A DNA stretch of 46,385 nt from assembly GCA_017881905.1 (NCBI GenBank), contig JADGQI010000141.1, forward strand, positions 1 through 46,385, read 5' to 3'. Under the pieces are notes generated by a model. That model ran no database searches, was not told the origin of the DNA, and saw only the letters and a program-made list of their open reading frames with translations. Below, one piece after another: positions 10,406 through 19,957 of this stretch (position 1 is the stretch's first letter; every line of letters begins with the position of its first letter). This stretch comes from Chloroflexota bacterium (GTDB taxonomy: Bacteria; Chloroflexota; Limnocylindria; Limnocylindrales; CSP1-4). The position numbers were made by a program, and so were the translations under genes.

Positions 10406-11412
10406 CCCGAGTCGGCGGGGGTCGGCGGTCCGGCCACGAACCGCGCGAGTCGGTCGCCCCGCAACCCTGCCCCCAGACCGACGGCGAGGGCGATCCGCGC
10501 CTTGGGTGCGGTCAGCGTCCCGGCGAGCATGGCGCCCGCCCGGATCCAGGTCGCGCCGCCACCCGGGAACGCATACCCGGTCCCGGCCGGTCCCGCCGGG
10601 GCCCGACTCGCCAGCACCACCGGGATCCCGGCCGCGATCGCCCGCTGACCGGCCGCCAGGAGCTCCGGGGACGTGTTCCCCGAGCCGGTCGCCGCGACCA
10701 CGATCCCGGCCGGACGCAACCCGATCGCGGCATCGAGGATCGCCGCATCCATCCCGACGGTCGCGGTCACGATCGGGATCGGCTCGGCAAGGGATGTCGC
10801 GCCGACGGGCTCGCGACGAGGACCGCGCGGCCGCTCGACCACGACGGTTCCAGCGTCGATCCGGCCCAGTCGGCCGAGGTTGAGGCTGCGGAACGTATCG
10901 ATCGCCGTGGCATGCGTCTTCGTGACGTCGTCGGCGGGCTCGATCGTCGCGGCGAGCACGACGACCACGCCCATCCCGACGAGGTCGGTCGACGCGGCAG
11001 CCGTCACGGCGTCGCGGAGGTTGGCGGGGCCGTCGTAGTCGGGGGCGGACGCGTTGCGCATCGCGCCGGTCACCACGATGGGTTTGGGCGAGTCGACCAG
11101 GAGATCGAGGGCGAACGATGTCTCCTCGATCGTGTCGGTGCCCTGGACCAGGACCAGCCCGTCGTTCCGGTGGTCGGCCAGGAGCCCTTCGACTACCCGA
11201 GCGATCGCGGACACGTCGGTGAAGGTCCAGTGACTCGCCGGCTTTCGCCCGTGATCGATCGCGACGACGTCCGCGATGGCATCGAGCCCCGGCGTCCGGG
11301 CCAGGATCGCCGCGCCGTCGAGTGCCGGCACGGCGCCGCCCGCCACCGGATCGACGACCATGCTGATCGTCCCACCGGTGAACACGACGGCAAGCCGCCT
11401 CAGCGCACCCAC
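10402..11412 (-). CDS. L-asparaginase family protein
   Basis: Hydrolyses L-asparagine to aspartate and ammonia; 336 aa, normal for the bacterial type I/II family, and with no signal peptide, so probably cytoplasmic. The first active-site motif is VVFTGGTISM (nucleophilic Thr in TGGTI). The second is LVLVQGTDTIEETSFAL with the Thr-Asp pair, then PIVVTGAMRNASAPDYDGPANL. The C-domain has GIVVAATGSGNTSPELL and VVLASRAP. The GTG at 11412 overlaps the upstream glycosyltransferase gene by 13 bp and has AGGGAG very close to it, so the start is not secure, but no other start gives a full N-terminal strand. Confidence 0.92.
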   Translation of the reverse strand: MGALRRLAVVFTGGTISMVVDPVAGGAVPALDGAAILARTPGLDAIADVVAIDHGRKPASHWTFTDVSAIARVVEGLLADHRNDGLVLVQGTDTIEETSFALDLLVDSPKPIVVTGAMRNASAPDYDGPANLRDAVTAAASTDLVGMGVVVVLAATIEPADDVTKTHATAIDTFRSLNLGRLGRIDAGTVVVERPRGPRREPVGATSLAEPIPIVTATVGMDAAILDAAIGLRPAGIVVAATGSGNTSPELLAAGQRAIAAGIPVVLASRAPAGPAGTGYAFPGGGATWIRAGAMLAGTLTAPKARIALAVGLGAGLRGDRLARFVAGPPTPADSG

Positions 11413-12749
11413 TCTCCCTGGCCACCTCCGACATGCGGCATCTTCTCGTAGCCGACGCTCCCCCGCCGGGACGCCAGGCGCCACATCGCGCCCGGGATCG
11501 CGCCGAGCCAGATCGCGTCGAACAGGCCGACGCGAAGCGCCCGCCGGGCGCGCGGGCCGGGCGGGATCGGTTCGCCGCCCGCGTCGGCCTCCCAGCGGAG
11601 GCCGTCCCACGCCAGGACGCTGCCGACGGCCAGGTACGTGCCGACGAGGACGATCGCCGGTGTCGGGCGACGGCGGAGGAGCCCACCACCGACCGCGCCG
11701 AGGATGAGGGGTGCGATCGCGAGCTGACCGGCGTACGTCGCGAAGTCGGCGCGCGCATACCAGCCGAGGCGCCGGCTGCGCAGGACCGCCGGGCCGTGCT
11801 CGAAGACCCGGCGCAGGCCGCCCTCCGCCCAGCGCAGTCGCTGCTGCCACAACGCGGCGACGCTGCGGACCGGCTCCTCCCAGACCTCGGCGTCGATCGC
11901 CCAGGCCACCCGGACGCCGGCTCGAGCGGCGAGCCGGCTCGACAGGTCGAGGTCCTCGGTCAGCGCCTCCGCCCGCCATCCTCCGACCGAGGCGAGCAGA
12001 TCGCGTCGGACCACGATCCCGTTGCCACGGAACTCCGAGCAGCCGCCGAGCGCCCAGCGTCCGCGCTGGATCACCCCATCGAGGGTCTGCTCGTCCGCCT
12101 GCGCGCCGGCCAGCCAGCCGGCGTCCGCGTCGATCACCCGGCGGCGGGCGGTGACCGCACCGGCGCCGGCCTCGACGTACGTGGCCAGCCGGCGCAGGAA
12201 CGGCGGGCCGATGCGTGCATCCGCATCGAGCACGACGATCACGTCACCGCGACAGGCCTCGGGCTGGACGGCGGTCAATGCGGCGCCCTTACCGTCGGGC
12301 AGGTCCGGCCCGTCACGCCGAACGACCGTCGTGATGGCCCCGATCCCAGCTTCGTGCGCCGCCGCGAGCACCGCGGCTCCTGTCCCGTCGTCGGACCGGT
12401 CGTCGATGACGACGAGGTCGAACAGGGGCGATCCGTCGGTCGCTCGATGGTCCTGGGCGGCGACGTCGCGAACGAGCGCACCGACCACGCCGGCCTCCGC
12501 GCGGGCCGCGACGAGGACCGTGAACGTGCAGCTCGCCGCGCCCGGATCGAGCGGCGGCGCACCGGGAGCGATCGGCGGTCGGCGACTCGCCAGCGCCAGC
12601 GGCAGGACGTAGCCACCCGCGATCGTCGCCGCCAATGCGACCAGGCGCCGAGCCCCGCCGACGGACCCGGCCGCGGTCCCGCAGGCGATCCCTCCACCGA
12701 GGACCCCGAGGGACACCAACCGCCAGGCGGTCGGCGTCCGATCAGGCAC
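11400..12749 (-). CDS. Membrane-bound family 2 glycosyltransferase
   Basis: Processive-type GT2 enzyme, 449 aa, that probably polymerises or exports a cell-surface sugar. Two N-terminal membrane segments (about 12-55) precede the GT-A domain: TFTVLVAARAEAGVVGALVR, DLVVIDDRSDDGTG (nucleotide site), GKGAAL, VIVVLDADARIGPPFLRRL (DxD metal site), ALTEDLDLSSRLAARAG and QQRLRWAEGGLRRVFEHG (QxxRW acceptor motif). At least two further membrane helices follow (ATYAGQLAIAPLILGAVGG, AIVLVGTYLAVGSVLAWDG). The arrangement is that of poly-GlcNAc or cellulose-like synthases, but the donor and acceptor cannot be told. Its gene overlaps the MFS gene by 8 bp. Confidence 0.9.
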   Translation of the reverse strand: MPDRTPTAWRLVSLGVLGGGIACGTAAGSVGGARRLVALAATIAGGYVLPLALASRRPPIAPGAPPLDPGAASCTFTVLVAARAEAGVVGALVRDVAAQDHRATDGSPLFDLVVIDDRSDDGTGAAVLAAAHEAGIGAITTVVRRDGPDLPDGKGAALTAVQPEACRGDVIVVLDADARIGPPFLRRLATYVEAGAGAVTARRRVIDADAGWLAGAQADEQTLDGVIQRGRWALGGCSEFRGNGIVVRRDLLASVGGWRAEALTEDLDLSSRLAARAGVRVAWAIDAEVWEEPVRSVAALWQQRLRWAEGGLRRVFEHGPAVLRSRRLGWYARADFATYAGQLAIAPLILGAVGGGLLRRRPTPAIVLVGTYLAVGSVLAWDGLRWEADAGGEPIPPGPRARRALRVGLFDAIWLGAIPGAMWRLASRRGSVGYEKMPHVGGGQGEWVR

Positions 12750-14235
12750 TGGCGTCGGCGGACGCTGCCGGGTGGGGACGGTGGGCGACGACCGACACGA
12801 CTCCGGTCAGCGTCACGGCCAGACCGACGACCACGAGCACGACCGTCGTCCCGAAGTTATCCGACAACGGGCCGACGATGATGATCGGCACGAAGCTGGC
12901 GACCGAAACGAGCATGTTCAAGACGCCGAAGACCCGGCCCCGGACCTCCTCCGGGAGTTCCTCTTGCAGGCCGACCTGGGCCGGGATCGCGACGAGGGCG
13001 TAGGCGATCCCGGCCAGGAACCCGATCCCGACGACGACCGCCAGCAGGGACACCATGCCCGAGACGTCGACCGGGCTGATGGACTCGGCACGCTGGAGGA
13101 AGCGGGTGATCGGACCGGCGGCGGACAGGGCGGTCAGGAGGACCCCGAGTCCGACCAGACCGCCCTCCATCACGCGGCGTCGCGGGAAGTACTTGCCGTA
13201 GCTGTTCAGCAGCAGGATGCCCGTCACGATCCCCATCCCGAGCGGGAGGACGACGACCACGAAGTCCTTGGGGGCGAGACCCAGGGCGTCCGTGGCGAAG
13301 GCCGGGCCGAGGACCCCGAGAACGCCGATGAGTGACGCCGTGACCCCCAGGTAGATCAGGGACCAGCTGATGTTCCGATGCGCCCGGATGTAGCTGAACC
13401 CCTCGCGCAGCTCGGCCACGATGGTGGCGACGGCCCGCTCGGTGTCCCTGGCGGCCAGCCCGGACTTCGTGCCGGGGACGGACGGCAGGATGATCGTGAA
13501 GACCGACGCCACGAGGTACAGGCCGGCCACGGTCAGGATCAGCGCCTCGGGCCCGGCCAGGTTGACGACGAGCGGGCCGAGGAACGCGAAGCCGAGCGCG
13601 AATGCCGCGTTCTGGGTGAACGTGAACAGGCCGTTCGCGGCCAGCAGCTGTCGCCGCTCGACGAGGACCGGGATCATCGCGGCCTCGGCCGGAGCGAAGA
13701 ACGTCGTGACCGTCGAGATGGCGATGTTCAGGATGAAGATCGCCAGGACGTTCCCCGAGGCGACGTAGACGAGGGCGAAGAAGACCGCCCGGAGCAGGTT
13801 GGTCACGATCAGGATCACCCGGCGATCGAGCCGGTCGACGTAGACGCCGGCGATCGCCGAGAAGAACACCGCCGGCGCCAGGAAGGTGAGCAGCAGCAGG
13901 CTGACCGCGGAGTTCGACTTCGTGGCGGAGTAGATGAGGACGGTCAGGCCGTACACGACCATGTTGCCGCCGATCTGGGTCGATGCCTGCGACAGCCACA
14001 GGAGGAGGAAGTTGCGGTTCCTCAGGACGGCCAGCGCGTTCGAGCTGCCGCCGTCGGCCGGCTCATCCTCCGCCGGGTCGTAGTGGGCGCCCTCGCGGTT
14101 CGTCGTCGCGTCGTCGTCGGGCGCCATCAGACCGTGCCCGTCCGAGGCCGGGGGCGTCCCGATCGACGACAGCGGCGGCGGAGGGATGGTGGAGCGCTCG
14201 GGCGGGTGCAGGAGCTCGGCGTCCCGTTCGGTCAC
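12742..14235 (-). CDS. MFS transporter (DHA3-like multidrug efflux type)
   Basis: Twelve-helix major facilitator of 497 aa. A soluble acidic N-terminus (about 1-65) leads to LRNRNFLLLWLSQASTQIGG, the typical start of the DHA3 (macrolide/enterobactin efflux) group. The loop 2-3 motif is reduced to GVYVDRLDRRVILIVTNLLR. The segment FFAPAEAAMIPVLVERRQLLAANGL is the characteristic second signature of this group. The second half carries QEELPEEVRGRVFGVLNM, also typical. Substrate unknown. The GTG start overlaps the DUF951 stop as GTGA, and its end overlaps the GT2 start. Confidence 0.9.
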   Translation of the reverse strand: MTERDAELLHPPERSTIPPPPLSSIGTPPASDGHGLMAPDDDATTNREGAHYDPAEDEPADGGSSNALAVLRNRNFLLLWLSQASTQIGGNMVVYGLTVLIYSATKSNSAVSLLLLTFLAPAVFFSAIAGVYVDRLDRRVILIVTNLLRAVFFALVYVASGNVLAIFILNIAISTVTTFFAPAEAAMIPVLVERRQLLAANGLFTFTQNAAFALGFAFLGPLVVNLAGPEALILTVAGLYLVASVFTIILPSVPGTKSGLAARDTERAVATIVAELREGFSYIRAHRNISWSLIYLGVTASLIGVLGVLGPAFATDALGLAPKDFVVVVLPLGMGIVTGILLLNSYGKYFPRRRVMEGGLVGLGVLLTALSAAGPITRFLQRAESISPVDVSGMVSLLAVVVGIGFLAGIAYALVAIPAQVGLQEELPEEVRGRVFGVLNMLVSVASFVPIIIVGPLSDNFGTTVVLVVVGLAVTLTGVVSVVAHRPHPAASADASA

Positions 14236-14483
14236 GTCGCGGTGTCCCGTGGGCGCGGGATGACGGCCTCGCTCCGAGCGATGTCGCCCCGTGACTCGAA
14301 GCCCACCAGCCGACGCTCGACCGCGGACCGGGCGAAGAGGACATGGCGTGCGCATGTCGTGCACCGCAGGCCGAGGTCCGCGCCGAGGCGGTCGATCAGC
14401 CAGGTCGACCCGCCGCACGGGTGCGGCCGGCGCAGCCTGACGACGTCACCCAGCAGGAACGGGATCGGCCGGCGCTCAGTCAT
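14232..14483 (-). CDS. DUF951 family small protein
   Basis: An 83-aa protein whose first 60 residues match the DUF951 fold: LLGDVVRLRRPHPCGGSTW (compare the family's GD-V-x-KKPHPCG), DRLGADLGLRCTTCARHVLF and RSAVERRLVG. The three conserved cysteines (HPCG and CTTC) could bind metal. The family is found mainly in Firmicutes and relatives and has no known function; in other genomes it often lies near the chromosome-partition or ychF region. Here it lies 27 nt downstream of a DUF881 gene and its stop overlaps the MFS start. A tail of about 20 residues is unlike the family. Confidence 0.85.
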   Translation of the reverse strand: MTERRPIPFLLGDVVRLRRPHPCGGSTWLIDRLGADLGLRCTTCARHVLFARSAVERRLVGFESRGDIARSEAVIPRPRDTAT

Positions 14484-14510
14484 CTGCGGTTCGCATCGGC
14501 CGGGAGGGTA

Positions 14511-15185
14511 TCAGAGCCGGGGCGTGCCGTGCGCCGGGAGGAGGTCCCGGGTCGTCCCCGGGATCTCGACGACGTCGACCGGCAGCACGGTGATCTGGAC
14601 CTGCGGATACGTCGCCGCGAGCTGGGCCACGATGCCGCCGGCACGGGTGAGCGAGCCGGTCAGCGTCGCGGGGTTGCCGAGCGCGGTGATCTCGAACCCG
14701 TCGGACAGGGCGGTGTTCTCGACGGACAGCGCACCGGGCGGCCCCGCCACGACCGTCCCGGGCACGACCCGGGTGTCGGCGACCGCCAGCGCCTCGGCCC
14801 CGGCGTTGTGCAGCTCGTTGAGCAGGTCCTGGACGCCGGCCCCGGCGATCATCCCGTCGACGGTCACCCGGACCCCCGTGCCGGTCACGGCGTCGAGCCC
14901 CGTCCAGGCTCGAACGCGCGCGAGGTCGAGGCGGAGCTGGTCCACGGACGACTCGCCGCGCGACCGGGCGCCCTGGAGGTCCGCCAGCTCGCGCTCGGTC
15001 GTGGCGATCTCGGTCCGAAGCTGATCGTTCCGGGTGTTGAGGTTGGCGACGAGGACCGTCAGGTTCTGGGCGGACAGCGCCTCGAGTCCGGTCCCGATCG
15101 ACTGCGATCGGAGCTGGACGACGACCAGCAGCCCGAGCAGCATCGTGACCGCAGCGATCGTGAGCTGGCTGTTGCGTTTGCGCAT
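14511..15185 (-). CDS. DUF881 family membrane-anchored protein (second copy)
   Basis: A 224-aa protein with one N-terminal membrane segment (LTIAAVTMLLGLLVVVQLRS) and a coiled coil (about 40-75, TRNDQLRTEIATTERELADLQ). The DUF881 globular domain follows (TGTGVRVTVDGMIAGAGVQDLLNELHNAGAEALAV in pieces, then DGFEITALGNPATL). The family (YlxW/YlxX in Bacillus) lies near cell-division genes in many Gram-positives and is thought to act outside the membrane, but the mechanism is unknown. The start ATG is 4 nt after the stop of the paralogous gene upstream, so the pair is co-translated. The C-terminal VQITVLPVDVVEIPG matches the predicted ACT-like end. Confidence 0.88.
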   Translation of the reverse strand: MRKRNSQLTIAAVTMLLGLLVVVQLRSQSIGTGLEALSAQNLTVLVANLNTRNDQLRTEIATTERELADLQGARSRGESSVDQLRLDLARVRAWTGLDAVTGTGVRVTVDGMIAGAGVQDLLNELHNAGAEALAVADTRVVPGTVVAGPPGALSVENTALSDGFEITALGNPATLTGSLTRAGGIVAQLAATYPQVQITVLPVDVVEIPGTTRDLLPAHGTPRL

Positions 15186-15189
15186 GGCG

Positions 15190-15951
15190 TCAGGGACCCG
15201 GGCTCGGCGCCGGGACGACCGGTCGCGAGTAGCGCAGGTTGATGGTCCCGGCGTAGGCCGGGATGAGCACGTCCTTGGGCTCGGCGAAGCCGACCTGAAG
15301 ACCGAACGCTTCGACCCGCATCCGGATGAAGTCCCGGAAGCCGGCCGAGCCGTTGACCTGGTCGAACAGGTCGGACGGCCCGATGGCCGAGATCTGGTAC
15401 GGCGGCGACAGGTACGCGGCGTTGAGCAGCACCGACCCACCGATGTCGATGATCGCCGTCGCCGACGTCACCCGCTCGCCGTTGACGGAGACCGCCTCAG
15501 CGCCGGACAACCAGAGCTCCTCGACGACGGTCCGGATGTCCCGCGCGGAGACGAGGTAGTCGGTCGGGTTGCCGCCCGGTGGCACGACGTTGGTCGAGTC
15601 GCGGAGCTGGAGGACGAGCCCGGGCCCCTGGAGCGCCGTCAGGCCCGCCTCGATCCGTGCCTGCCGCAGTTGGTCGTCGAGCTGCTGGACGGCCGCGGCG
15701 CTGCCCTGGCCCTGCGTCTCCACGCCCTGGATCGACGCGCGCAGGTCGAGCAGGCGCTGCTTGAGCGCGTCCTGCTGGGTCTGGAGACCCTGCGCCGTCT
15801 CGACCAGCGGCACCCGTTCATTCGTGGCGTAGCTGACCCGGGGCGTCTCGCTCCTGAGCTGGGCCGCGATCAGGAAGCCCAGCGACAGGAGTGCGACGCC
15901 GAGGGTGATCTGCCAACCCGCGATCGATCGGAATCTGGTCGCGACACTCAC
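15190..15951 (-). CDS. DUF881 family membrane-anchored protein (first copy)
   Basis: A 253-aa paralogue of the downstream gene. The layout is an N-terminal membrane helix (WQITLGVALLSLGFLIAAQL), a long coiled coil (about 45-95, QGLQTQQDALKQRLLDLRAS), and a DUF881 domain with GLTALQGPGLVLQLRDS, DIRTVVEELWLSGAEAVSVNG, QISAIGPSDLFDQ and the C-terminal VGFAEPKDVLIPAYAG. It is extracytoplasmic by topology. Its ATG overlaps the stop of the HExxH peptidase gene (ATGA). Tandem DUF881 genes of this kind are usual in Actinobacteria and Chloroflexota; the two proteins may form a heteromer. Confidence 0.9.
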   Translation of the reverse strand: MSVATRFRSIAGWQITLGVALLSLGFLIAAQLRSETPRVSYATNERVPLVETAQGLQTQQDALKQRLLDLRASIQGVETQGQGSAAAVQQLDDQLRQARIEAGLTALQGPGLVLQLRDSTNVVPPGGNPTDYLVSARDIRTVVEELWLSGAEAVSVNGERVTSATAIIDIGGSVLLNAAYLSPPYQISAIGPSDLFDQVNGSAGFRDFIRMRVEAFGLQVGFAEPKDVLIPAYAGTINLRYSRPVVPAPSPGP

Positions 15952-17327
15952 GGTTGGTCCCCGCTCCCGGGCGTCGTCTTCGACCGGCGTCGACGGACCA
16001 GCGCGACCCCGAGGACCACGAGGACGACCGCCACGACGACGAGCAGTCCGAGGCCGACCTGGTCACCGCTCGACGGCGGCGACGGGGCGGACGACGGCGT
16101 CCCGGGAGCCGTGGGGCCCGGGAGTGGTGCCGTCGGTTGGTCGGGTGCGCCGCTCCAGCCCGACGGCAGGGGCCCGACCGGACCGGGACGGGGCCCGACG
16201 GCGGCGGGCGTCTTCGCTCCGAGGTCGTGCAGCCAGCCGGTCTGGAACGTGGCCACGTCCTGACCGATCCCGGCCGTGAACGCCTCGTCGTCGGTCACTC
16301 CGTCGGCATACGACCGGACGAGTTTGACCAACGCATCGCGTCCGAACGTCCGGACGAGGTAGTCGACGGCGGAGACGCTCTCGCCGTACGCCAGGAAGAA
16401 CTGGTCGCGGGTGGTGGGAAACTGTGCGGTCAGGCCGTCGAGCGGGATGATCCCGTCGCCCCGGATGGCATCCTCGACCGCGGATCGCCACGAATCGGTG
16501 TACCCCTCAGACAGGTAGACAGCGAGGCCCTCGTTGAGCCAACGGGGTGGGAAGTGATACGGGTTCTTGACCGCGGTATCGAAGACCAGGTGGGTCAGCT
16601 CGTGCGGGACGACCGTCGAGACCCATGTCGCGTCGATCTCGTCGGGCTTGATCAGCGCGAACATCGTCCGGATGTCCGCGTGCGCCTCGCCCCCGACGTT
16701 CTCGCGGGTCCCCGGACCGAGGGCATCGTAGAAGGCCTTCTCGTCGGAGTAGATGTAGAAGTCCACCGGCTCGGTCTCGGTCACGCCGAGCAGCTTGGCC
16801 GCGTCGTCGATGCCCTTCTCCCCGATGTCGAGGGCGCGCTTGCCGAAGTCCGTCGGACCGTCGTACCAATGGACGCGAACGACCGGACCGGCCACGGTCT
16901 TCCAGTCGAACCGGGTGTCCTTGTAGAGGACCGACGTCGGCTCGCCGAGGCGGACGGTGCCGTCGGCGTCGGTCACCCGCCACTGCGCCGTGAACCGCGT
17001 GTTCGGGACGAGGTGCTCGTCGGCGTCGAGGAGGTCGAAGGTGAGCGTCGTCGGCTGACAGCACGACGGCGGCTTCACCGAGCTCACGAACGGCCCGACG
17101 GTCCCAGGCGTGGTGACCAGCACCTCGACGCGCTTGACCTCGCTGGTCGGGGTGAACGGTTGCTCGAACGTGACCCCTTTGCCGTACTCGGCCGATGCGG
17201 TCGGCGTCCCGAACGCAGGATCCGCCGCCGACGCTGGGCCGGGCACGCCGGGCAGCAGCCAGAGCAAGGACGACGCGAACACGATCCCAAGGACCCAGCC
17301 CGCTCGACCGAGCCGTCGCCCCGGCAT
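15948..17327 (-). CDS. Secreted, membrane-anchored metallopeptidase (peptidase MA-like)
   Basis: A 459-aa exported protein. A signal peptide (WVLGIVFASSLLWLLPGVP...ASA) is followed by a beta-rich region (about 40-160) with a CC pair (PPSCCQPTT). The metallopeptidase domain has the gluzincin motif VVPHELTHLVFDTAV (HExxH variant HELTH) and the distal Glu in PPRWLNEGLAVYLSEGY, the hallmark of the MA-like family. After a Pro/Gly-rich stalk a C-terminal membrane helix ([19 protein letters not shown]) and an RRRR stop-transfer anchor the protein with its active domain outside. The ATG overlaps the solute-binding protein stop (TGATG). Substrate unknown; its neighbours suggest a role in envelope protein turnover. 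Confidence 0.9.
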   Translation of the reverse strand: MPGRRLGRAGWVLGIVFASSLLWLLPGVPGPASAADPAFGTPTASAEYGKGVTFEQPFTPTSEVKRVEVLVTTPGTVGPFVSSVKPPSCCQPTTLTFDLLDADEHLVPNTRFTAQWRVTDADGTVRLGEPTSVLYKDTRFDWKTVAGPVVRVHWYDGPTDFGKRALDIGEKGIDDAAKLLGVTETEPVDFYIYSDEKAFYDALGPGTRENVGGEAHADIRTMFALIKPDEIDATWVSTVVPHELTHLVFDTAVKNPYHFPPRWLNEGLAVYLSEGYTDSWRSAVEDAIRGDGIIPLDGLTAQFPTTRDQFFLAYGESVSAVDYLVRTFGRDALVKLVRSYADGVTDDEAFTAGIGQDVATFQTGWLHDLGAKTPAAVGPRPGPVGPLPSGWSGAPDQPTAPLPGPTAPGTPSSAPSPPSSGDQVGLGLLVVVAVVLVVLGVALVRRRRSKTTPGSGDQP

Positions 17328-18940
17328 CACTTGTTCGCCCAGTCGAGGCCGGCCAGGCGCATGATCCCGAGCCCGCTCTCGGTCGCGCCGAGCAGGCCGT
17401 CGCGCGCCAGGGCATAGCCGTCGCCGTAGGCGAGCGGGACGACGGGGACGTCGCGCTGGACGATCGACTCCGCTCGGTCGTAGGCGGCGCGGACCGCGAT
17501 CGGGTCGGTCGCAGCGGCGGCGTCGGCGATGGCCTGGTCGAACTCGGGCGACTCCCATCGACCGTAATCGTTGGTGCTGCCCTTGCTCAGCAGGAGGCCC
17601 AGGAAGTCGTTCGGGCCCGGATAGTCGGCGACCCAGCCGAGGGACCAGAAGGCGGGCGGATCGGTCCCGAGCCGATGGAAGTAGTCGTCCCAGGTCTCGG
17701 ACTTGAGGTGGATGCCGAGCTCCCGCTCGAGATCGGCGATGACGGCCTGATCGTAGCCTGAACCATTGACCAGGGTGACCTCCGGGAACCCGGCTCCGCC
17801 GGGGAACCCCGCCGCCGCGAGGGCTGACCGGGCGGCCTCGGGATCGTGCTTCGGGCTGAAGTCCTTGTCGCTCCGTCCAGGGATCCCGGGAGGGACCATG
17901 CTCGTGGCCGGGGTCGAGCTCGCGCCGTCGGCCAAGGCGACGATCCGCTTCCAGTCGACGGCCCAGGCGAATGCCTGGCGGACGCGCACATCGTCGAACG
18001 GCGGCTTGCTTGCGTCGAACCCGAAGTAGGTCAGACCGGCCGAGGGGACCGTTCGCAGGGCCGGCCCCAACGCCTTGTCGTAGCGGATCCAGTTGGCGTC
18101 GTAATCCCCGATCGGGGCGTAGTCGATGTCGCCGTCCTCGAAGGCCTGGACGGGGCTCCGACCGCCGAGGCTCGTGATGAGGTGGACGGTCCCGATCGCG
18201 GGCTTGCCCGCCCAGTAGCGGTCGTTGGCCGTCAGGGTCAGCTCGGTCGCGGTCTGATCGCTCAGCCGGTAGGCACCGCTCCCGACGAAGCCGTCGCCGG
18301 GCTGGATCGCATCGGCCCCGGCGCCGAGGCTCGGCGGGACCACCGCGAACGTCGGGCCGGAGGCGATCGCCGGGAAGTCGGTGGCCGGTCGGCTCAGCCG
18401 GACTTCGACGTCGTTGCCGCTAGCCGTCAGCCCCACGCTCGATGGATCCGTCGACCTGCCGTGAAGGTAGGCGTCGGCACCGGCGACGTCCGACATCAGC
18501 GACGCGAGCGGAGACGGGCGCTTCGGATCGATGATCCGAAGCCAGCTCCGGACCACATCGGCCCCGGTCAGGGGCGTGCCGTCGGAGAAGGTCAGACCAT
18601 CGCGAAGATGGAAGACGATCCGGCGTCCGCCGTCGAGGACGTCCCATGACTCCGCGAGCGCGGGACGAAGGACCAGTCCAGGGTCGAACGCGGTCAGGCT
18701 CTCGTACAGCTGGGAGCCGACCACCGCGCTGGCGATGTCGCCCTGGAGCGCGGGATCCAGGTCGGCCGGCGTGCCGACGAGGATCTTGACGTCATCCCTT
18801 GCTGCGGCCGCGACCGCCGACGGTCCACCGGCCGGACCCGGCCCAGTGCCGACGACGAGGCCGAGCAGGACGGCAGCGGCCAGTGGCCCGAGGCGCCTGA
18901 CCGTGGAGCGGCGAATGAGGCGGCCCCCCTGGCGGCGCAT
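17327..18940 (-). CDS. ABC transporter substrate-binding protein, family 5 (peptide/nickel type)
   Basis: Periplasmic or cell-wall binding protein of 537 aa with a signal sequence (LGPLAAAVLLGLVVGTGPG; no clear lipobox Cys). Family 5 landmarks are DLDPALQGDIASAVVGSQLYESLTAFD, RPALAESWDVLDGGRRIVFHLRDGLTFSDGTPLTGADVV, GSGAYRLSDQ, YFGFDASKPPFDDVRVRQAFAWAVDWKRI and GWVADYPGPNDFLGLLLSKGSTND (here given in stretches of the protein). Such proteins feed oligopeptides or other small molecules to DppBCDF-like permeases, yet no permease or ATPase gene lies in the window. It may serve a distant transporter or act as a sensor or chaperone. It heads a run of genes that overlap or nearly abut. Confidence 0.9.
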   Translation of the reverse strand: MRRQGGRLIRRSTVRRLGPLAAAVLLGLVVGTGPGPAGGPSAVAAAARDDVKILVGTPADLDPALQGDIASAVVGSQLYESLTAFDPGLVLRPALAESWDVLDGGRRIVFHLRDGLTFSDGTPLTGADVVRSWLRIIDPKRPSPLASLMSDVAGADAYLHGRSTDPSSVGLTASGNDVEVRLSRPATDFPAIASGPTFAVVPPSLGAGADAIQPGDGFVGSGAYRLSDQTATELTLTANDRYWAGKPAIGTVHLITSLGGRSPVQAFEDGDIDYAPIGDYDANWIRYDKALGPALRTVPSAGLTYFGFDASKPPFDDVRVRQAFAWAVDWKRIVALADGASSTPATSMVPPGIPGRSDKDFSPKHDPEAARSALAAAGFPGGAGFPEVTLVNGSGYDQAVIADLERELGIHLKSETWDDYFHRLGTDPPAFWSLGWVADYPGPNDFLGLLLSKGSTNDYGRWESPEFDQAIADAAAATDPIAVRAAYDRAESIVQRDVPVVPLAYGDGYALARDGLLGATESGLGIMRLAGLDWANK

Positions 18941-18958
18941 GGCCCGGAGTGTAGCCCG

Positions 18959-19957
18959 TCAGGCTCCCATGGGCCCGGGGGCGCCCTCCGAAACGACGAT
19001 CAGGTCCTGCCGACGGCCGAACCGGTCGACCAGCCGGTAGAAAGCTCGCTTATCGAGGCGGCTTCGCTCGTCCGGCCCGAAGCCGTCGTCGTTCGGCCGG
19101 TCGTGACGGACGAGCGGCAGGTCGACGAGTCGGATGGCGCGCCGAGAAGCGGTCCCCTCCCCCGCATCGCGCAGGACGAGACTCCACCACGCCTCGAGGT
19201 GCCGTCCCGTTCGGAACGCCGCGTCGAGCGGTCCTCGCGCGAGCACGTCCTCCCGCCGGAAGGCGAGCACGCCCCCGTCGACCGCCGTGACATCCCCCGG
19301 AGGCGCCGCCGTGAAGCGTCTGAGGTCGGTCGTGGTGCTGCCCCAGGCACCCGCCACCGCGACGGTCGGATCGTCGAGCGCGCGGATCAGCGGCGAGACG
19401 GCGTCTCCGACCGGCTCGACCCGGGCGTCCAGCAGGATCACGACGGCGGCTCGAGCCCGGCGCACGCCCGCATTGAAGGAGCCCGCTTCACCGAGCCGAG
19501 TCGCTATCCAGACGCATTCGGGATCGATCCCGCCGATGGGACCGAGGCCGGGACTCGACGGATCCTCGAGTCGCCCGGACTGCGACCGGGACGGCGCATC
19601 GGCGACGACGACCGTCTGCGTGCCAGCAGGAGCGTGCGCGCGTAGGCCGGCGAGCGCCCGGTCGACATCGTCGGGATGATCGGTCGCCCGGAGGATCACC
19701 GTCGCGCCGACGGTCGCGGGTTCTCCAAGCCGCGACGGTACCGACGTGCTGGCTCCGTAACGGACCCGTCCCGACTCGACCACGTCGGCCGGAGTGGCAC
19801 GCGACAGCCGGAAGCTCGTCCCAGCGTCGACGACCTTCCAGCCCGCACCTTCGATCCCCGCCCGCAACCGGTCCGCCTCGTCCCAGTCGGCGACTGCCCG
19901 GGCCGCCGCTCGCGCCTCGGCCATCTCCTGGATCTCGGTCGGCACCGCATCGCTCAC
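18959..19957 (-). CDS. Fusion of a CysRS C-terminal helical domain with a GT2-like domain
   Basis: 332 aa with GTG start. Residues 1-46 (AEARAAARAVADWDEADRLR, then GIEGAGWKVVDAG) copy the C-terminal helical hairpin of cysteinyl-tRNA synthetase. The rest looks like a family 2 glycosyltransferase: ATVILRATDHPDDVDRALAG, GSFNAGVRRARAAVVILLDARVEP (position of the DxD, here DAR), TAVDGGVLAFRREDVLARGP, EAWWSLVLRDAG and a basic tail KRAFYRLVDRFGRRQDLIV. The incomplete metal motif suggests altered or lost catalysis. No membrane segment is seen. It lies 18 bp upstream of the solute-binding protein gene. The fusion is seen in one uninterrupted frame; the function is unknown. Confidence 0.75.
   Translation of the reverse strand: MSDAVPTEIQEMAEARAAARAVADWDEADRLRAGIEGAGWKVVDAGTSFRLSRATPADVVESGRVRYGASTSVPSRLGEPATVGATVILRATDHPDDVDRALAGLRAHAPAGTQTVVVADAPSRSQSGRLEDPSSPGLGPIGGIDPECVWIATRLGEAGSFNAGVRRARAAVVILLDARVEPVGDAVSPLIRALDDPTVAVAGAWGSTTTDLRRFTAAPPGDVTAVDGGVLAFRREDVLARGPLDAAFRTGRHLEAWWSLVLRDAGEGTASRRAIRLVDLPLVRHDRPNDDGFGPDERSRLDKRAFYRLVDRFGRRQDLIVVSEGAPGPMGA

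Follow-up and report, generated by a model that had tools for sequence, protein, structure and literature searches.

Aminoacyl-tRNA synthetases (aaRSs) with appended domains, together with free-standing relatives of such domains, are an established theme, and GluQRS and HisZ are known free-standing paralogues of aaRS domains. Joining of a synthetase to another enzyme is represented by the MetRS-AGAT fusion (PMC13215547). In the E. coli complex of cysteinyl-tRNA synthetase (CysRS) with its tRNA (1U0B), G34 of tRNA-Cys is hydrogen-bonded by Arg427 and Asp436 and stacked on by Trp432, while Arg423 acts via a water network (PMC12684709). For glycosyltransferases of the GT-A fold, four core elements have been defined, including the xED motif, and some GT-A families have lost the DxD motif yet stay active, metal-free (PMC7185993). 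The queuosine glycosyltransferases of animals are described as modifying Q34 in tRNA-Tyr and tRNA-Asp (PMC12518689). Our literature search, limited to open-access papers, returned no description of a fusion between CysRS, or any other aaRS, and a glycosyltransferase, and as far as we found, no synthetase with an appended glycosyltransferase fold has been described.

The window analysed here is the whole 46,385-nucleotide stretch of contig JADGQI010000141.1 from a Chloroflexota metagenome-assembled genome (MAG) that is 78% complete. On its reverse strand, at 18959..19957, it carries a gene for a 332-aa protein in which a CysRS C-terminal domain (CysS_C) is followed by a GT-A (GT2-like) domain. 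The ORF has a GTG start, with an in-frame stop three codons before it, and its 3' end is separated by 18 bp from a gene for an SBP_bac_5 solute-binding protein (17327..18940, reverse strand). Judged from the ORF itself, the family orthologues and full-length profile matches across Chloroflexota, it is a real coding sequence. The search for the same architecture in other genomes that the initial annotation had proposed was productive: a full-length search recovered homologues in 92 of the 107 genomes of the window's GTDB family and in all 34 near-complete (≥90%) ones. Full-length orthologues are 36-59% identical, N-terminal CysRS piece included, and in the family alignment the first ~55 residues are conserved to the same degree as the remainder. 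The AF2 model of the full-length protein (pLDDT 94.1, pTM 0.89) places a helix-helix-hairpin before the GT-A domain, and the pTM and the confidently modelled linker (pLDDT 92-98) indicate a two-domain unit with confident relative placement. This conserved linker (residues 54-82; 19712..19798, reverse strand) has the consensus RYGSSxxVPSRLxEP, and its G68 and V73 P74 S75 are invariant or nearly so in the family alignment.

The N-terminal piece corresponds to the C-terminal anticodon-binding subdomain of CysRS, as indicated by PDB profile searches, PF23493 and the AF2 model. It spans residues ~6-53 (19799..19942, reverse strand) and comprises helices 7-21 and 25-37 and a hairpin, 40-45/48-53. 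PDB searches with the single sequence gave nothing useful and profiles were required; with a profile of 21 free-standing N-termini, CysRS chains from five structures were the only significant matches (3tqo, 4e-10; 1li5, 5.6e-8; 8qhp, 7e-6; also 6ujd and 3sp1), rather than the unrelated proteins that a generic helix hairpin would recover. Of 34 family members, 27 match Pfam PF23493 (CysS_C, Cysteinyl-tRNA ligase anticodon binding domain) at E ≤ 0.01, and the homologue at locus L146 reaches 25.7 bits (cut-off 23). For the window protein alone, PF23493 is not among the matches at E ≤ 1, and the one CysRS match is weak (PRK14536 443-482, E 0.26). The initial annotation had matched residues 1-46 to the end of CysRS as a helical hairpin; the relationship is real, and the extent is corrected to ~6-53, a helix pair plus a beta-hairpin. 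The class I catalytic core (PF01406, HIGH, KMSKS, Zn ligands) is absent from the window protein.

The N-terminal profile aligns gaplessly to E. coli CysRS 414-457 (E. coli number = window number + 407), and in this alignment R16, R20, W25 and D29 (19871..19912, reverse strand) are the equivalents of Arg423, Arg427, Trp432 and Asp436. All 65 free-standing homologues have R16, R20 and D29 and an aromatic residue (W, F or Y) at position 25. Six CysS_C positions are at least 97% conserved in these 65 sequences, and the probability of at least three G34 contacts out of four falling among six near-invariant positions by chance is P = 0.005. The free-standing forms have not kept the equivalent of E. 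coli W458, a residue of the terminal TTW motif of CysRS. Because the G34-contact residues are kept in every free-standing form (65/65), tRNA-Cys binding by the CysS_C-GT protein is probably retained, and we consider it likely, with the contacts being the E. coli ones transferred by alignment. Their invariance could partly reflect folding, as the same residues are conserved in CysRS generally, and tRNA binding by CysS_C on its own (~50 aa) may be only weak. No recurrent tRNA gene occurs near the CysS_C-GT genes. Of the two roles that the initial annotation had offered for the CysRS piece, the tethering of a sugar-transfer-like domain to RNA finds support, at the level of sequence, in this pattern of kept R/R/aromatic/D equivalents and lost W458, whereas reuse of the helix hairpin for oligomerisation fails to explain it.

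The rest of the protein, ~285 residues that had been read as GT2-like, is indeed so. Residues 83-313 (19019..19711, reverse strand) are assigned to a GT-A fold, GT2-like domain by PF00535, which scores 23.5 bits against the window protein (cut-off 23.3) and matches 32 of 34 family members, by Foldseek with the AF2 model (E 1e-9), which retrieves GalNAc-T2, PcManGT and the Leptospira glycosyltransferase 6p61, and by a sequence profile of the domain, which matches 2z86/2z87, 6p61 and 6yv7. The weakened DxD (DAR) noticed earlier proves to be a family trait: in the degenerate motif D177-A-R179-V-E181 (19415..19429, reverse strand; family consensus D-T-S-V-E), position 179, the third DxD residue, at which the metal-binding Asp would stand, is never Asp in 51 aligned sequences. 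D177 is present in 44/51 rows and E181 in 46/51, and position 177 is degenerate as well in seven free-standing forms. The catalytic-base position of the xED motif, located by alignment to 2z87, is residue 255 (19193..19195, reverse strand), which is Asp in 49/51 rows and Glu in the window copy, and the C-His equivalent is H285 (19103..19105, reverse strand; His in 45/51 rows, by alignment). The window copy may be inactive, with a third DxD residue that is never Asp in the family, an Arg there and a Glu at the base. Because other GT-A families without DxD work metal-free (PMC7185993), its loss is no proof of inactivity. An ordinary, separate GT2 protein is also encoded in the window (11400-12749, reverse strand; PF13641, 95.5 bits).

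A profile search across 400 Chloroflexota genomes also gave matches within ORFs that measure 720-1100 codons from stop to stop. Among 40 loci examined outside the window's family, the CysS_C-GT pair stands alone at 19, and at 21 it is the C-terminal half of an ORF of 734-896 aa whose first ~470 residues are CysRS. These fused proteins score 363-464 bits against TIGR00435 (cut-off 340; 10/10 scanned) and 292-341 bits against PF01406 (9/9 scanned), and all 21 retain the Zn ligands together with the HxGN and KMSKS motifs. The fusion is an accessory paralogue, since at least 18 of the 21 genomes hold an additional unfused CysRS, and some genomes (e.g. G361 and G218) have both fused and free forms. 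The negative control was one other Chloroflexota class, where matches at E ≤ 1e-20 occur in 2 of 60 genomes, and no fusion was found in plasmid records from outside the phylum. A Prevotella match covering 79% was rejected as a fusion, since cysS and the GT2 gene behind it are two genes there. At this locus (L236:2486-5014, Prevotella sp. oral taxon 299) the GT2 gene lies 60 bp after cysS and resembles dolichol-phosphate mannose synthases, and an independent cysS-GT2 neighbourhood is possible. Several fused proteins carry His-rich tails past the GT domain, e.g. HSHNHQHWPEHSHEHPHYH, which have a metal-binding look (C-termini at L132, L133, L135, L138-L142 and L165).

Because the CysS_C-GT pair ends full CysRS proteins in many other Chloroflexota, the window gene is regarded as a split form, and descent of the 332-aa protein from a CysRS fusion appears highly probable. 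Every free form starts with CysS_C, which makes splitting of a fusion the simplest origin of the free forms, the direction not being proved. The CysS_C-GT tree requires two changes for the free forms and two for the fused ones, and therefore splitting or joining happened more than once. A quick-search tree of 99 CysRS-like proteins, with SH-aLRT support values, unites the fused CysRSs in a single clade (98) nested in a paralogue clade (99) that we label CysRS2. The CysRS2 clade also holds the unfused CysRS2 of the window's family (f1) and of the GTDB families f3, f21, f22 and f83, all of them families in which the free-standing form occurs.

Within the window's family, CysRS2 occurs in about 27 genomes. 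Its scores are 694-990 bits, apart from two lower-scoring partial genes at contig ends, and the housekeeping CysRS reaches at most 383. CysRS2 and the free-standing gene are both present in 24 genomes; in 17 of them they share a contig and are always convergent, within 61 bp in 12 cases. The 18-bp gap next to the window gene (18941..18958) is empty here and holds a convergent unfused cysS2 in L035 and several relatives. Near-complete family genomes have CysRS2 in 8/34 cases versus 34/34 for the free-standing form, and therefore in most of the family the free form operates in the absence of CysRS2, presumably alongside the housekeeping CysRS. The window genome, at 78% completeness, has the housekeeping CysRS only, on contig C136, with no CysRS2 detected; this is the genome's only CysRS match, and it confirms the earlier remark that no cysS lies in the window. 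Many Chloroflexota have up to three PF01406 proteins (L166-L235), namely CysRS (HIGH or HxGN), CysRS2 (HxGN, fused or not) and an MshC-like ligase of ~400-450 aa without an anticodon domain.

The neighbourhood gives no general inference on the sugar, because the neighbours are family-specific only. In the window's family they are SBP_bac_5, Peptidase_MA and DUF881 genes, or TPR-rhomboid. The downstream SBP_bac_5 gene adjoins the target gene in 19 of 33 family loci and is not thought to be part of the CysS_C-GT function. In the window it belongs to a conserved block at 12742-18940 (reverse strand) of SBP_bac_5, Peptidase_MA_2, two DUF881 proteins and an MFS transporter, and this SBP_bac_5/Peptidase_MA_2/DUF881/MFS block adjoins the target gene in 16-19 of the 33 loci. 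In f21, which we take to be Ktedonobacteria-like, the free-standing gene is preceded on its own strand by a mannose-1-phosphate guanylyltransferase-like gene at nine loci (L146-L151, L158, L160 and L164), and in most of these an oligoendopeptidase F-like gene lies downstream of it. The guanylyltransferase is a hint at most as to the sugar, and apart from it, no conserved neighbour making or using a particular sugar was found at the loci examined. Genes for MshC-like cysteine ligases co-occur with CysS_C-GT in many Chloroflexota genomes, and none was found in the genomes of the window's family examined or in two f90 genomes; a mycothiol link through MshC was rejected as a general explanation on these grounds. 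In genome G191, CRISPR-like arrays at C3:889035-892831 and C5:383343-386781 contain TTCAATCCCTCATAGGTAGG about every 66 bp.

Our best guess is that the protein binds tRNA-Cys and that its GT domain transfers or senses a sugar there, with tRNA-Cys binding the strong inference and transfer the weaker one. In the reading that we tentatively prefer, at a little short of even confidence, the protein is a free-standing form of a CysRS-GT fusion that docks on tRNA-Cys, binds a nucleotide-sugar through its GT-A domain and, most probably, transfers the sugar. CysS_C would dock on the anticodon loop and bring the GT domain there, in trans in the window organism or in cis on the charging enzyme in the fused forms. 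The GT domain would bind the nucleotide-sugar without a classical DxD-metal site, and E181, H285 or basic residues might compensate, as in metal-independent GT-A families. The sugar would then be moved onto tRNA-Cys, in or near the anticodon loop, in a manner comparable to the enzymes that glycosylate queuosine-34. Of these steps, nucleotide-sugar binding seems slightly favoured over its absence, and sugar transfer to tRNA is possible rather than probable. tRNA-Cys, whose anticodon is GCA, does not belong to the Q tRNAs. We know of no glycosylated nucleoside in tRNA-Cys, which counts against transfer. More speculative still, and on balance unlikely, is a new class of tRNA-Cys-directed glycosyltransferases that would add an undescribed sugar to the anticodon arm in Chloroflexota without a classical DxD metal site, in cis on CysRS2 or in trans.

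The main rival, which we rate as possible but doubtful, is a non-catalytic tRNA-Cys binding factor, in which a dead pseudo-GT fold would add RNA, nucleotide or protein contacts and the free form would serve CysRS or tRNA-Cys in trans, either as cofactor or as regulator, as other stand-alone relatives of appended aaRS domains do. It accords with the invariant G34 contacts, the DxD lost in 51/51 aligned sequences, the seven free-standing forms degenerate at position 177, and the many invariant arginines (R234, R263, R272 and R308) that could contact RNA. However, the xED-Asp (49/51) and C-His (45/51) are conserved beyond what a dead enzyme would need, and other GT-A families are active despite a lost DxD (PMC7185993). 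It is improbable that the GT domain is an active glycosyltransferase whose acceptor is something other than RNA, such as a thiol, a glycolipid head group or a protein. CysS_C would then be no more than an inherited folding or oligomerisation unit, for which the conserved linker and high pTM would fit a structural role, and the MshC-like ligases of many genomes make cysteine-sugar chemistry probable there. Yet those ligase genes were not found in the genomes of the window's family examined or in the two f90 genomes, and retention of the G34-contact positions in 65/65, against the loss of other CysRS-conserved positions, would go unexplained. That the gene is a vestigial, functionless remnant of a fused gene is very improbable: the lack of a detected CysRS2 in the window genome and the Arg at the third DxD position would suit it, but full-length conservation in 34/34 near-complete family genomes and a free form more widespread than CysRS2 (8/34) speak against it. 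An assembly artefact or chance resemblance, conceivable for an incomplete MAG and weak single-sequence matches, is refuted by recurrence of the architecture in over 90 independent assemblies, significant profile matches and a confident fold.

The preferred reading, docking on tRNA-Cys with a sugar-related role, suggests an undescribed sugar-related event on cysteine tRNA in Chloroflexota, and makes such an event a concrete prediction. The GT fold appended to a synthetase occurs here phylum-wide, in cis and in trans, with the anticodon-contact residues in every free-standing copy. It accounts for one extra CysRS copy in many Chloroflexota and is also an annotation trap, as such proteins would be labelled CysRS or glycosyltransferase alone.

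Compared with known aaRS fusions and free-standing paralogues (MetRS-AGAT, MshC, GluQRS and HisZ), an aaRS domain is likewise joined to, or split off with, an enzyme, whereas no aaRS-glycosyltransferase fusion is named in the literature searched. Unlike MshC, the window protein has no ligase core, and the fused CysRSs score 208-242 bits against MshC (cut-off 485) and fall outside the MshC-like clade. The queuosine glycosyltransferases act at the anticodon loop, as the window protein would, a likeness by analogy only; their targets are Q34 in the tRNA-Tyr and tRNA-Asp of animals, whereas the candidate target here is tRNA-Cys, not a Q tRNA. The C-terminal domain of E. coli CysRS (PF23493; residues 414-457, 1LI5/1U0B) has the same helix-helix-hairpin and G34-contact residues, but in the window protein it stands apart from any catalytic, DALR or zinc-binding region, lacks the terminal TTW motif and stands N-terminal to a GT-A domain. 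With GT2 GT-A glycosyltransferases (PF00535; 2z86/2z87, 6p61 and 6yv7) the window family shares the fold, D177, the xED-Asp position and the C-His, and it differs from them in a third DxD residue that is never Asp and in being joined to a putative tRNA-binding module.
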